A DNA stretch of 48,198 bases from assembly GCA_035516965.1 (NCBI GenBank), contig DATIZR010000037.1:1-48198 (forward strand), written 5' to 3'. Below are positions 42,948-48,198 of this stretch, in pieces. The position numbers were made by a program, and so were the translations under genes. This stretch comes from Nitrospirota bacterium. Its GTDB lineage: Bacteria > Nitrospirota > UBA9217. The notes beneath the pieces are model-generated. The model saw nothing but the letters and a program-made list of their open reading frames with translations. It had not been told where the DNA came from and did no database searches. How positions within the stretch are numbered: position 1 is the stretch's first letter; each line of letters begins with the position of its first letter.

Positions 42948-43304
42948 ATGAATAGAACAGCAGTGACGACCTTTGCTTTTCTCATTTTTGGCCTGCAGCT
43001 GATGTCGGTACATCAATCCGCACAGGCATGCCAAGTCGACGAGTTTTACCTTACGAAAGAAGGTCCCCTGGCCGCTTCTACCCCGCAGATCTTGAATGAA
43101 GCTACAAAATATGAAGAAGGCGGAGACAATGATAAACTTGCCGGTCTTCTGGATAAGGGGAGCGTACTGAGGTTGAAAGGGGATATCAAGGTCCAGGTTT
43201 TGGAAAGATCTTTTGAATTCAAGACGCTGAAAATAAAATTCTCAGACCGAACAGACCCTTATTGGGTCAAGGACGGTTCTCTGAAACAAATCATTTGTAA
43301 TTAG
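42948..43304 (+). CDS. small exported protein of unknown function
   Basis: The 118-residue product has a signal peptide (TFAFLIFGLQLMSVHQSAQA-C; the cysteine after QA may be an ordinary residue rather than a lipobox). The mature part is mixed alpha/beta, ending YWVKDGSLKQIICN with a second cysteine that could pair with the first. GGAGGAG lies a few bases before ATG 42948. Codon usage is less GC-rich than in neighbouring genes. I do not recognise the family. The stretch VLRLKGDIKVQVLERSFEF and SDRTDPYWVKDG suggests a small beta-barrel or SH3-like fold, but this is a guess. Confidence 0.7.
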   Translation: MNRTAVTTFAFLIFGLQLMSVHQSAQACQVDEFYLTKEGPLAASTPQILNEATKYEEGGDNDKLAGLLDKGSVLRLKGDIKVQVLERSFEFKTLKIKFSDRTDPYWVKDGSLKQIICN

Positions 43305-43855
43305 GCAATTAACCATCTATTTTGCTGGCCTCAATAATGGAAGAAATAAAATGCACACACATTTCGAATAAAAAAAGATGATACTTTGCCTATCTTTCTG
43401 TATAAAAATTTCACATCATCCGCGGATGCAGTAAATTTTAAGCAAGGCAATATTCTCATTAGAAGAATTGAATACCATCAAAAATGGGAAAAAGAAATCA
43501 TCGGCGAGATATAACTGGGAATCAAGCAGGTTATATTTACAAAACTGGGGGCATGACAATTAACGGCGGACTTACTTATGCAAATCAAGTTTACATTTTA
43601 TCGACTTCAGGATCGAATTCTGACAGATGTAAAGGTTGAATATTCAAGAGGAGGTTTATATTGTCCTGTAGAATGAATCCGGACATTGAATATCCACGCC
43701 GGGCCGCTACGCGTCGTGTCAAATCATCGTTCCGCTTATCTTCTCACAAACTCCCCGCAACGTATTCTCAATCGCCCGATTATCCAGCCCCTCGATAATG
43801 ACCACCAGCCTGCCTTGCTTGCGAATATCTTTTCCCGTTTGCTTCTCGTCCTCAA
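43305..43855. other. AT-rich gene-poor region, with possible remnant
   Basis: These 551 bases are markedly AT-rich up to about 43680. One short open frame (43484-43639, plus, 51 codons, MGKRNHRRDITGNQAGYIYK...) has a reasonable amino-acid content but no ribosome site, so I list it only here. The end (43719-43855) appears to be coding on the minus strand as the lost 3' part of the glycine-zipper gene (see findings). Confidence 0.5.
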
Positions 43856-44429: not shown

Positions 44430-44834
44430 TCACTCCTTGCCCTTAGGCGGATTTGAAGGCGGAACAACCTTCAGCCAGCCGCCGGGACATTGTTTCACGT
44501 AGGGATAATAGGTCTTGGTATCCGGACAGAAATACCAGTAATACGGTTGCTGCTGTACCTGGGGCGCCTCTTGTTCATATGCGGGATATTGCTGCTGCAT
44601 GACAACGGGAGGATCCGAGTAGTAATAATTCGGATAAGGATAATAATATGGATAATAGTACGGATAGGGACCCCACCACGGACCTCCGATCCAGATTCCA
44701 CCGCTTACATGGCCATGGCCTCCTCCATGATAATAGCCTCCCCCGTAGTAGCCCCCTCCATGTGCATACACAGGCAGGACACCTGCAAGCAGGATTAAAG
44801 TGATGGCCACGAAAAGATAAATTATCTTTTTCAT
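44430..44834 (-). CDS. exported His/Gly/Tyr-rich protein with C-terminal YYPYV-CPGGW motif
   Basis: A 134-residue protein with a signal peptide (IYLFVAITLILLAGVLPVYA). A His/Gly/Tyr-rich region (HGGGYYGGGYYHGGGHGH) could bind metal. A Tyr/Pro region follows, and the end YFCPDTKTYYPYVKQCPGGWLKVVP carries two cysteines flanking YYPYV. This ending recurs in many proteobacterial exported proteins of unknown function. AAGGAG precedes ATG 44834 by eight bases. It is seven bases upstream of the glycine-zipper lipoprotein start and likely cotranscribed. Confidence 0.8.
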   Translation of the reverse strand: MKKIIYLFVAITLILLAGVLPVYAHGGGYYGGGYYHGGGHGHVSGGIWIGGPWWGPYPYYYPYYYPYPNYYYSDPPVVMQQQYPAYEQEAPQVQQQPYYWYFCPDTKTYYPYVKQCPGGWLKVVPPSNPPKGKE

Positions 44835-45011
44835 GTTCGATTCTCCTTCGTGATCGCCGGCAGAATAGCTCTCCCTTATATTATAAGACATCGCTGATGA
44901 TAAATGGTTTAAGGGAGCAATACTTTAGGCCGACAAATCAGACTCACACCCGGCACTACTTTGCCCGTTAGCCTTCGTTTTAATTTGAAAGTCTACAGAT
45001 AGCAGGCGACG

Positions 45012-45953
45012 CTACTGGTGTTCTCTTCTCTGCCCAGACGAAGTTTTATTGCCTCCCTGGGAATGATGGCCCTCCTTACTTCCACGTGAATGCGACGGAG
45101 GCATTTTCCTTCCCTCTGTCATTGCCCGTTCATGGGAACCTCTAAATATTGTTTCAGCCCCTCCTCGACGACCGGGTGAGATAAAACGTTTATCATCGTG
45201 CGGCGCGCCTATGCCTGCAAAGGTCCGTCCATTGTATCTCCTCACGGGGTCAATTCGAACGATCCTGTTCGTGCGGTGATCAACGAAGTGATTGGATATA
45301 ACTTCCACCCTGCCATGGACATGGACGACCCTGTGGAAATCAGACAAGATGTAGAACCCGGGAAACCATATATTCCACCCCCAGAAGGGGTACGGGACCC
45401 AGGTGTATAAGTAAAAATAATCAGGAGGAGGGGGGTAGTAGGTCACAGCCGGCGGGCCCTGGTCGTAGTAATAGTTGTTTATCACGGTATTATCAGGAGC
45501 AGCGATATTACCTGGACCTTGCTGGGCCGTCTGTCCGGGAGTACCTCCCCTGACAGCTAAGTTAGCCCCGGCCGTAACATTCTGGAGTGCCAGCAAGGCT
45601 TCACCTTTCCCCATTTTCAAATTGTTAAACTCAGCCGCGACGCTTATTGACTGCGTCAACTCTCCGATAATATCAGGCGTAACCGGGTAATCGGCAATCC
45701 ACCCGTTCCGTGGCGTGATGCCGGCATTCCCGAGCAGGCTTTCTGCTTCAGCCTCGCTGGTAGCCGTTCCCAGTTTAAGCGCATCAGCAAGCTTGACTGC
45801 CAAGTCTCCTTCCCTGACCAAAGGCTGAGCAATCGGAGCTTGTTCTCCTGCCGCTTGCCCGGATTGCGCATGGATACCTGCAGGCATTGAAACAAAGACG
45901 CTCAATGCCAAAGGCGCCATAAGGAACAATCTTCTCATGGTTTTTTGCCCCAT
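45012..45953 (-). CDS. exported aromatic/Pro-rich protein of unknown function
   Basis: The 313-residue protein has a signal peptide (MRRLFLMAPLALSVFVSMPAGIHA). The N-terminal mature part (VREGDLAVKLADALKLGTATSEAEAESLL through ITPRNGWIADYPVTPDIIGELTQSI) looks like a small helical domain. A central aromatic segment (NNYYYDQGPPAVTYYPPPPD, then YLYTWVPYPFWGWNIWFPGFY) is followed by a His/Arg-rich C-terminal tail. The middle helical segment resembles SurA- or FMN-independent domains only superficially; I do not recognise the family. It is on the same strand as, but 177 bp upstream of, the two preceding exported-protein genes. The ATG at 45953 is used; 45938 is an alternative. Confidence 0.7.
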   Translation of the reverse strand: MGQKTMRRLFLMAPLALSVFVSMPAGIHAQSGQAAGEQAPIAQPLVREGDLAVKLADALKLGTATSEAEAESLLGNAGITPRNGWIADYPVTPDIIGELTQSISVAAEFNNLKMGKGEALLALQNVTAGANLAVRGGTPGQTAQQGPGNIAAPDNTVINNYYYDQGPPAVTYYPPPPDYFYLYTWVPYPFWGWNIWFPGFYILSDFHRVVHVHGRVEVISNHFVDHRTNRIVRIDPVRRYNGRTFAGIGAPHDDKRFISPGRRGGAETIFRGSHERAMTEGRKMPPSHSRGSKEGHHSQGGNKTSSGQRREHQ

Positions 45954-46065
45954 TCATTTTTCGCCAAAGACCAGATCTCTCTCCTAATGTATATGTTAAC
46001 CTAAATCCGGCCTAAATTCTATAATGTGATACGGAATGTCCTAGTTAACGGTAGTTAGATTTGTC

Positions 46066-46093
46066 TTGACATCCTCGTATGACCTGCTATAAT
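46066..46093 (+). promoter_or_regulatory. consensus sigma70 promoter of the IS1595-type transposase
   Basis: A perfect TTGACA (46066-46071), a 16-base spacer and a perfect TATAAT (46088-46093) lie about 35 bases upstream of ATG 46129. Both hexamers are consensus, which is unusually strong for a transposase gene. Confidence 0.8.
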
Positions 46094-46128
46094 TGTCCTC
46101 AGTAAAGGTAGTTGACTTTGGAGGACAT

Positions 46129-47010
46129 ATGAATATCATCGAAGTTTACCGCAAGTTTCCTACTCCCGAATCCTGCCTTAAACATCTTGAAAAAGCCCGT
46201 TGGAATAGTACACCTGTTTGCCCTTATTGCGCAAGCACTAGAACAACCGCAATGCCAAAAGAACTTCGGCATCATTGTAATAACTGTAAAACCTCTTTCA
46301 GTGTTACAGTCGGGACGATTTTCCAAAAAACTAAGGTCGATCTTCAAAAGTGGTTTCTTGCAATCTCTATCATCTTAAACGCTAAAAAGGGGCTTTCCTC
46401 TCGCCAACTCGCTCGTGACTTAGAAGTTAATCGAAATACTGCTTGGTATATGGCCATGCGGATTCGCAAAGCTATGACTCAATTTCAAGATCAAACTCTG
46501 TTACAGGGCATTGTCGAAATGGATGAAACATATATCGGTGGCAAACCTCGCAAGGGTAACAATGACGATGGTGCTCCAAACAAACGTGGACGCGGGACAA
46601 AGAAGATCCCAGTTGTTGGTATGGCTGAGCGCGGTGGCAAAGTAAGAGCTAGTGTTTCGAAAAAACACGATCTTAATGCCACTAAGCTTTCTGCTCTTGT
46701 TCGGAGAAATGTCAACGTAACAAACACCATTCTTATGACTGACGAATATAAAGGCTATCTTCGCATGTCAAGCTTCATTGACCATAGAACTATTAATCAT
46801 CAGCAATGGTATGTTGATGGCGATATTCACACAAACACCATTGAAAGCTTCTGGGCGCTCTTGAAACGTGGAATCGTAGGACAATATCATAAAGTCAGTT
46901 TACACCATCTTCCAAAATATATTGATGAGTTCTGCTATCGCTATAACAATCGAAAAAATGAAAACGTCTTTGACATGACCTTGAATAGAGCGTTGGAGGT
47001 GAGGATATGA
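46129..47010 (+). CDS. IS1595-family (ISXO2-type) transposase
   Basis: A 293-residue transposase. An N-terminal zinc ribbon has Cys31-x2-Cys34 (CPYC) and Cys50-x2-Cys53 (CNNC). An HTH-like region (SSRQLARDLEVNRNTAWYMAMR) precedes an ISXO2-type catalytic domain with DETYIGGK (Asp132), TDEYKGY (Asp205) and NTIESFWALLKRG (Asn236/Glu239). GGAGG lies a few bases before the ATG. Base composition is clearly more AT-rich than the chromosome around it. Its stop overlaps the start of the P63C gene by four bases, so the two are translated together. Terminal inverted repeats were not identified with confidence. Confidence 0.92.
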   Translation: MNIIEVYRKFPTPESCLKHLEKARWNSTPVCPYCASTRTTAMPKELRHHCNNCKTSFSVTVGTIFQKTKVDLQKWFLAISIILNAKKGLSSRQLARDLEVNRNTAWYMAMRIRKAMTQFQDQTLLQGIVEMDETYIGGKPRKGNNDDGAPNKRGRGTKKIPVVGMAERGGKVRASVSKKHDLNATKLSALVRRNVNVTNTILMTDEYKGYLRMSSFIDHRTINHQQWYVDGDIHTNTIESFWALLKRGIVGQYHKVSLHHLPKYIDEFCYRYNNRKNENVFDMTLNRALEVRI

Positions 47011-47891
47011 CAGAAAAAACCCTCAGAGCCGTTTGGGGATCGCCTGATAGGCCCCTGAAAATTGTAGGGCTTGAAATACCATGTTATGTGCTTGAAGATG
47101 GGACAAGAGTTCTATCTGGACGGGGCATGCAAGAGGCTCTTGAATTAGGTCAAGGCCATGGTGCATTATTGAAGCGTTTTTTAGGAAGTAACAACCTAAA
47201 GCCATATATTAATAATGAGTTAGCCATGGCGCTATCTAATCCGATTAGATTTATAAGACCAGGCAGGGGTGGAAAGCTTGCTACAGGATATGAAGCTACG
47301 ATACTGGCAGATATTTGCAATGCAATATTGGAAGCAAGGGATAATGGGCTGTTATCAAAAACTCAAGAGCTAGTAGCAAGACAATGTGAAATACTCACGA
47401 GAGCATTTGCCAAAGTAGGAATAATTGCTCTCGTAGACGAAGCAACGGGTTATCAAGAAATTCGAGATCGAGAAGCTTTACAGAAAATCCTCGATAAATA
47501 TCTTCTTAAAGAATTTGCAGCTTGGGCAAAGAGATTCCCTGATGAGTTTTATATGTTGATATTCAAATTAAAAGGATGGGAGTGGAAAGGCATGAAAGTA
47601 AATAGGCCCAGCGTTGTTGGTACATATACAAATGATTTAGTTTATGAAAGATTAGCGCCGGGACTTTTAAAGGAACTAAAAAGGCTAAATCCTAAAGACG
47701 ATAAGGGCAATAGACCAACAAAACATCAGCAATGGTTGACAGAAGATATAGGGCATCCAGCACTCGCGCAACATCTACATGCTGTAATGGGATTTATGAG
47801 GGCCGCAGCTACATGGGATCAATTTTATAGAATGATACAGAGGGCGTTCCCTAAAAAAGAAGAAACCTTACCGTTGTTATTAGAAGATTAA
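47007..47891 (+). CDS. P63C-domain protein, coupled to the transposase
   Basis: A 294-residue protein resembling P63C-domain proteins, found on plasmids, phages and mobile elements with unknown function. It opens LRAVWGSPDRPLKIVGLEIPCYVLEDGTRVLSGRGMQEALEL, which recalls KilA-N/antirepressor-type N-termini. The C-terminal part (KEFAAWAKRFPDEFYMLIFKLKGW, LVYERLAPGLLKELKRLNP, QWLTEDIGHPALAQHLHAVMGFMRAA) matches the P63C pattern. It overlaps the transposase stop (ATGA), shares its AT-rich composition and is therefore likely a passenger gene of the same element. No catalytic motif is evident. Confidence 0.75.
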   Translation: MTEKTLRAVWGSPDRPLKIVGLEIPCYVLEDGTRVLSGRGMQEALELGQGHGALLKRFLGSNNLKPYINNELAMALSNPIRFIRPGRGGKLATGYEATILADICNAILEARDNGLLSKTQELVARQCEILTRAFAKVGIIALVDEATGYQEIRDREALQKILDKYLLKEFAAWAKRFPDEFYMLIFKLKGWEWKGMKVNRPSVVGTYTNDLVYERLAPGLLKELKRLNPKDDKGNRPTKHQQWLTEDIGHPALAQHLHAVMGFMRAAATWDQFYRMIQRAFPKKEETLPLLLED

Positions 47892-47895
47892 CAAT

Positions 47896-48058
47896 TTACC
47901 TTTTTCTCTCTAAGTAAGATTTAAGACCGTAACCCCCACCAAATGCTCCAGCTAAAGCAACGAGGGTATTAATGATGTTAAAAAGAATGTCTTTAGTGTC
48001 TTTTAAAAAAACAATAAGAAATATTAAAAATACAAATGCAAGTATTGTATACCCAAAA
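47896..48058 (-). pseudogene. small membrane-protein gene truncated by an IS3-family insertion
   Basis: On the minus strand, 53 codons encode FGYTILAFVFLIFLIVFLKD, then a second hydrophobic segment (LFNIINTLVALAGAFGGGYG) and the end LKSYLERKR. Two membrane helices are visible. The 5' end is lost where the IS3-type inverted repeat begins at 48059; the residues read beyond it come from the insertion. Its stop is four bases from the P63C stop, convergent. It may belong to the same mobile element as the transposase. Confidence 0.7.
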
Positions 48059-48083
48059 TGAACTGACCCCCACCGTTTGGACA
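48059..48083. repeat. terminal inverted repeat of an IS3-family element (left end)
   Basis: The 25 bases beginning TGAACTGACCCCCACC and ending TTTGGACA match the common IS3-family end pattern (TGnACTGnnCCC...TTGGACA). The transposase orfA starts 59 bases inside it. The other end lies beyond the window. Confidence 0.8.
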
Positions 48084-48141
48084 AATATGGTAGAGTACCG
48101 GACAGGATCCATGGCCTGGAACGGGCAGAAAGGATCTTGTC

Positions 48142-48198
48142 ATGAAGAAACAGAGGTCGTTCAGTTCCGAGTTCAAGCGTCAAGTTGTTGAAGAATAC
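48142..48198 (+). CDS. IS3-family transposase OrfA, partial
   Basis: The first 19 codons, MKKQRSFSSEFKRQVVEEY, are the typical start of the HTH-bearing OrfA of IS3-family elements (cf. the KRrrFSpEFKaeVV pattern). The gene runs off the right end of the window. It lies just inside the terminal inverted repeat. Confidence 0.8.
   Translation, partial: MKKQRSFSSEFKRQVVEEY

Follow-up and report, generated by a model that had tools for sequence, protein, structure and literature searches.

The window analysed here is the whole stretch of 48,198 nucleotides from a Nitrospirota bacterium (contig C37). Near its right end, an intact gene for an IS1595-family DDE transposase (46129-47010, plus strand) is followed on the same strand by a gene for a 294-aa P63C protein (47007-47891). 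The transposase matches DDE_Tnp_IS1595 (PF12762, ISXO2-like DDE domain; E 3e-38) and Zn_ribbon_IS1595 (PF12760; E 2.8e-9) in Pfam and the IS1595 family in NCBIfam (NF033547; E 4.8e-62), and its motifs DETYIGG, TDEY and HTN-IESFW are intact together with both CxxC pairs. Its ORF covers 46093-47010 when counted from TTG; the likely start is the ATG at 46129, which is preceded by GGAGG. The second protein matches P63C (PF10546) at E 4.6e-33, with 114 bits against a curated cut-off of 26, and phrog_2384 at E 1.8e-102 across almost its entire length. The name P63C reportedly goes back to Iyer and co-workers (2002), and no function is known to have been assigned to it in the more than 20 years since. 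When searched in the same genome, the transposase and P63C were each found in a single copy.

Upstream of both genes stands a promoter TTGACA-N16-TATAAT (46066-46093, plus strand; TTGACA at 46066-46071, TATAAT at 46088-46093), which matches the consensus at 12 of 12 positions; none of 200 shuffles matched equally well. The start codon of P63C overlaps the stop codon of the transposase (ATGA), and the GC content of the element is 0.40, compared to 0.58 in the remaining window. The initial annotation, made from the sequence alone, had described the overlap, the perfect promoter and the AT-rich genes on a GC-rich background exactly. The element is adjoined on its left by two neighbouring minus-strand ORFs with signal-like starts (44430-45953), one of which is Gly/Tyr-rich and neither of which matches Pfam. 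A further AT-rich patch (GC 0.37-0.39) without a recognised gene lies in GC-rich surroundings at 43000-43750.

The left end of the element was located at a terminal inverted repeat, CGGAATGTCCTAGTTAACGGTAG (46032-46054, plus strand), which matches the ends of sister elements and is preceded by one copy of an 8-bp target duplication, ATGTGATA (46024-46031). The genome contains one further repeat of this kind, on contig C61 (G000:C61:21937), about 20/23 identical to the left repeat. The 8 bp beyond it, read in the orientation of the element, are again ATGTGATA. A complete 1271-bp insertion, which appears to be IS3-like from our reading of its two ORFs, is found 0.8 kb from this right repeat. The left end of the same insertion occupies 48059-48198 of the window (plus strand; 140/140 bases identical to the C61 copy), and contig C37 stops inside it at 48198. 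The insertion is preceded by its own 7-bp duplication, CCCAAAA (48052-48058), of which a second copy was found on C61, while its other flank on C61 does not match CCCAAAA. Identical copies are present on C37 (48059-48198), C57 (1-141) and C61 (L141:8776-10046). Since two independent duplications match, the 8 bp of the element and the 7 bp of the insertion, C37 was joined to C61. The right end is absent from the window because the IS3-like insertion at 48059 and the end of the contig conceal it; the split between the two contigs reflects either recombination between copies of the insertion or wrong flanks joined in the assembly. Without the 1271-bp insertion, the element measures 2027 + 836 bp, about 2.86 kb. 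We regard this anatomy as nearly certain. The span of 46066-48058 given in the initial annotation was thus too short, as the element starts earlier, at 46032, and ends outside the window. An empty insertion site was not found in relatives, and the gene flanking the element on C61 had distant matches only.

A third gene lies on the minus strand of the element. Its 3' part (47896-48058), with two predicted membrane helices, had been described as a two-helix gene converging four bases past P63C; the stop is indeed four bases beyond, but this is only part of a longer gene that the IS3-like insertion split at 48059, leaving the 5' part on contig C61 (L141:8420-8775). A further ORF (L141:8092-8439) lies between this 5' part and the right end. 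The two pieces, searched separately, gave nothing above the Pfam cut-offs, and neither ORF of the split gene matched a family with a recognisable toxin or antitoxin domain. The ORFs of this region on C61 had no match in PHROGs, and the 5' part had none in PADLOC, plasmids or phages. Among 118 genomes searched, the N-terminal piece had one weak relative. An assignment of the gene to DUF2335 was dropped, as neither piece matches any family. The inverted repeats and duplications enclose both P63C and the third gene, so that these are non-transposase passengers inside the ends, in line with the initial description of an IS1595-type element bearing P63C and a membrane-protein gene.

Passenger-carrying members of the IS1595 family are called "transporter IS" (tIS; Siguier 2009, as cited in PMC11891212). 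They share with the element in the window the transposase domains, the inverted repeats, the 8-bp duplication and the placement of a passenger 3' of the transposase; the window differs from them in that the passenger is P63C. The element in the window is such a passenger-carrying IS1595 transporter IS, which was later interrupted by an IS3-like insertion.

The bacterial genome scan with a P63C alignment yielded 80 loci, and 124 P63C neighbourhoods were clustered after the viral, plasmid and whole-genome loci had been added to those of the scan. This sample was gathered by similarity to the P63C of the window and is not random. An IS1595 transposase stood directly upstream of P63C, in the same direction and within 160 bp, at 33 of the 124 loci. 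At 21 of them an IS1-like transposase was nearby, mostly divergent, and no other transposase family recurred. The initial annotation had proposed searching for a trio of transposase, P63C and membrane-protein gene elsewhere. The transposase-P63C pair recurs across many phyla, but the trio is not fixed, with a third gene that varies or is absent. Inverted repeats with a perfect 8-bp duplication enclose P63C in 17 of 23 tested IS1595 elements and in none of 184 mismatched left/right pairings used as controls. The TTGACA box is also placed just inside the left end of most sister elements. Ten IS1-like elements showed the same arrangement around P63C, with a different repeat, GGTAGTGGGTCAGTTTGAAT. 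The ends and target duplications that the initial annotation wished to see defined were thus obtained for the window and for these sisters, and neither of the outcomes it had named as counter-evidence, P63C not recurring beside IS1595 transposases or ends that exclude it, was found.

In the P63C tree, a quick version with SH-aLRT support only in which the IS1595-linked L068 is labelled "other", IS1595 and IS1-like labels are interleaved, and at least six changes are forced by well-supported branches. This indicates that P63C moved between the two transposon families. It also occurs apart from such a transposase, in phages and plasmids. Among Nitrospirota transposases, each of the six examined that share at least 52% identity with that of the window adjoins P63C, and none of the 24 less similar transposases does (Fisher p 1.7e-6). 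P63C was found in 10 of 13 viral contigs chosen by the transposase alone, and with full-length sequence beside 10 of 30 IS1-like transposases; no added sample was gained from Planctomycetota. In a subgroup of IS1595, P63C is therefore the usual partner without being obligatory, and in the IS1-like family it is optional. One pair of elements gave a dN/dS of 0.05 in P63C and 0.15 in the transposase. In other pairs dS was saturated, and only 7-13% of the non-synonymous sites differed. P63C is under strong purifying selection and is not decaying cargo.

Such a tight association could mean that P63C is an accessory transposition factor, a DNA-binding or bridging protein that would pair the ends, protect or circularise the excised DNA, or limit copy number. 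The overlap of its start with the transposase stop, its presence beside all close Nitrospirota transposases and none of the distant ones, its frequency in the viral contigs and its recurrence with the IS1/IS1595 group only would all fit this reading. On the other hand, P63C shifts between elements whose inverted repeats are unrelated, accompanies only a third of the IS1-like transposases, and is carried by many phages and plasmids that have no such transposase. We consider an accessory factor rather unlikely.

The genes that take the place of P63C argue in the same direction. Sister IS1595 elements with inverted repeats identical at 20/20 positions carry other genes directly 3' of the transposase. 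This slot holds a C5 DNA methylase together with another gene in L316:2915-5594 (duplication 8/8), an N6/N4 DNA methylase whose Mrr-like part stays below threshold in L304 (7/8), a PIN gene and an IrrE peptidase in L327:2901-5316 (8/8), and a short gene without an assigned family in L313 (8/8) and L310 (5/8). The methylase gene of L304 even overlaps the transposase by ATGA. Elements with perfect ends and duplications thus move without P63C, bearing methyltransferase or PIN genes. In this exchange of a selfish or defence-type gene beside transposition genes, they resemble the toxin-antitoxin passengers of the Tn3 family (PMC7157771), although the transposase family and the passenger differ from those in the window.

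The third genes of P63C elements are mutually unrelated. They include a Panacea antitoxin (L020, L059), IrrE with an HTH gene (L083), IrrE (L122) and, in L108, which has matching repeats but showed no duplication, a HindVP restriction enzyme; some are small two-helix proteins. Membrane toxins are known among the partners of Panacea (PMC8832971). An addiction system, with P63C as one half of a toxin-antitoxin pair and the convergent third gene as the other, would agree with the antitoxin-like and IrrE-type genes and with the small two-helix proteins, but six P63C elements (L021, L060, L065, L080, L123, L126) lack a third gene altogether, those present elsewhere share no relationship, and the pieces of the third gene in the window match no family. 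We judge an addiction role very unlikely.

The AlphaFold2 model of P63C was confident (pLDDT 92.3, pTM 0.70). Against a viral library it matched p63 of Myxococcus phage Mx8 best (E 1.7e-14); Bro-N and antirepressor models came next, with weak matches. Among solved structures DdrC of Deinococcus radiodurans came first (Z 6.6 over 186 residues, rmsd 13.3), chiefly through the N-terminal domain (Z 5.9 over 90 residues, rmsd 4.1), with Ski/Dachshund and Mbp1 domains behind it; Z values below 8 call for caution and may reflect a shared general arrangement. DdrC differs from P63C in genomic setting and no sequence relation between them was detected. No relative of P63C was found in the PDB by sequence, and Foldseek of the model against the PDB returned nothing below E 0.001. 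DdrC is a DNA-binding protein that condenses DNA and helps linear molecules to circularise (PMC5436757), and as the closest solved fold it is a point in favour of an accessory factor. The phage proteins Mx8 p63, ST104 ORF23 and phrog_2384 resemble the P63C of the window in full-length sequence and predicted fold, while the protein in the window is transposon-borne, stands in an operon with a transposase and has no N-terminal KGG-ARW extension like that of ST104 ORF23. P63C had been introduced as a family of no known function. This is literally true, but its domain belongs to the phage antirepressor-like DNA-binding proteins.

The C-terminal part of P63C (residues 175-255) is similar to a section of phrog_2899, "anti-repressor Ant" (E 1.7e-12), and weakly to Rha. 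KilA-N and P63C match neighbouring parts of phrog_1136, and a KilA-N gene stands beside P63C in one IS1595 element. These similarities would suit an antirepressor-type transcription regulator that sets the expression of the element or interferes with the repressors of resident prophages. ISNha5, an IS1595-family element, is moreover reported to bear a "transcription regulator" as passenger (PMC11891212, citing Siguier 2009), and its passenger may belong to the P63C family too. A regulator seems unlikely to us, since sister transposons have methyltransferase or PIN genes in exchange for P63C, and in view of the position of the gene in phages. In the two lambdoid phages examined, ST104 and Midgardsormr38, P63C lies directly 3' of cI and is co-directional with it, on the lysogeny side and not in the lytic operon.

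In prophage BTP1 the place after cI is occupied by bstA, and rexAB is likewise found there (PMC8585504). BstA is a prophage abortive-infection protein with a KilA-N-like domain that gathers where invading phage DNA replicates (PMC8585504). It is similar to P63C in length and possibly in its predicted N-terminal DNA-binding domain; both occur outside prophages as well, and bstA follows cI as P63C does in the two phages above. The BstA model (pLDDT 83.9) also had DdrC as best solved match (Z 6.4), and both models match Bro-N/antirepressor models. The profile score of P63C 22-153 against BstA 26-153 was 33.4, compared to 22.5 for the top of 40 shuffled decoys, with a low hhalign probability of 12-25%. 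The N-terminal domain of P63C is predicted to be Bro-N/KilA-N/DdrC-like, possibly as in BstA. There is no significant match of the whole lengths, and the two belong to separate PHROG families: BstA matches only phrog_6287, which P63C proteins do not match in the PHROGs search. The likeness to BstA is weak and confined to the N-terminal domain.

Taken together, these results suggest that P63C is a DNA-binding passenger of an exclusion or defence type, a reading that we hold tentatively and at slightly less than even confidence. In its favour are the exchange of P63C for methyltransferase or PIN and IrrE genes in sister elements, the Panacea antitoxins, IrrE and the HindVP restriction enzyme among the third genes, the phage position shared with bstA and rexAB, the DdrC/Bro-N likeness and N-terminal profile score in common with BstA, and the strong selection on P63C. 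Against it we counted the lack of a PADLOC match for P63C, its place outside phrog_6287, the match to the anti-repressor phrog_2899 and the weakness of the BstA likeness, as well as the tight coupling to the transposase in Nitrospirota and viral contigs, which fits a helper also. The initial annotation had suggested a role in transposition, immunity or addiction. An immunity-type role would fit best, and an accessory one is weakened by the exchange in the slot and by the transposase-free P63C of phages and plasmids.

In the mechanism that we propose, a single promoter just inside the left end would drive the transposase and then, via the stop/start overlap, P63C, with a convergent and variable cargo segment downstream of this operon. 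P63C would be a selected passenger that aids the persistence of the element through an effect on incoming or competing DNA. Its Bro-N/KilA-N/DdrC-like domain may bind DNA, and the helical P63C domain could block the replication or expression of the invading DNA in the manner of BstA. The host would thereby gain defence or exclusion from the element, much as it may from the restriction-modification and PIN/IrrE genes of sister elements, and phages, plasmids and transposons would all benefit from carrying P63C, as with restriction-modification and toxin-type genes. It is possible, rather than probable, that P63C proteins form a previously undescribed family that binds DNA and excludes phages or other elements, with a BstA-like layout, and that is carried by and exchanged among temperate phages, plasmids, and IS1595 and IS1-like transposons, in a standard passenger slot that otherwise holds restriction-modification or toxin-type genes.

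Our literature search found no paper linking P63C with a transposon. As far as the searched literature shows, three points are new: P63C pairs repeatedly with two transposase families, it is exchanged with methyltransferase and PIN/IrrE genes, and it has a BstA-like layout. One transposon subgroup has P63C as its main passenger and a second family carries it frequently, which leads to a concrete prediction on its function; if this is true, very small transposons have defence genes as standard equipment.

Several further elements were observed in the course of the comparison. One viral contig bears a 4.36-kb IS1595 element (L048:1551-5906) that has perfect 20-bp ends and the duplication AAAATAAA, and in which a KilA-N gene adjoins P63C; this KilA-N protein did not match the P63C profile. 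An exact-ended IS1595 element (L317:2896-4997; also L325) carries a very distant relative of P63C, with about 25% identity and PF10546 below the cut-off. In L084 and L105 a large recombinase gene, which looks like a serine recombinase, lies directly 3' of P63C and represents a third kind of mobile-element partner. Furthermore, IS1-like P63C elements (L022:6788-7063, L110:5903-6220, L128:5912-6148 and others) contain a convergent gene of 80-105 aa with the motif ALGRLGGLKGGKARAxxLSxxxRxxIAxKAAxARW, which is also present in IS1-like elements without P63C. The same motif opens the phage P63C protein ST104 ORF23, which suggests a functional link.
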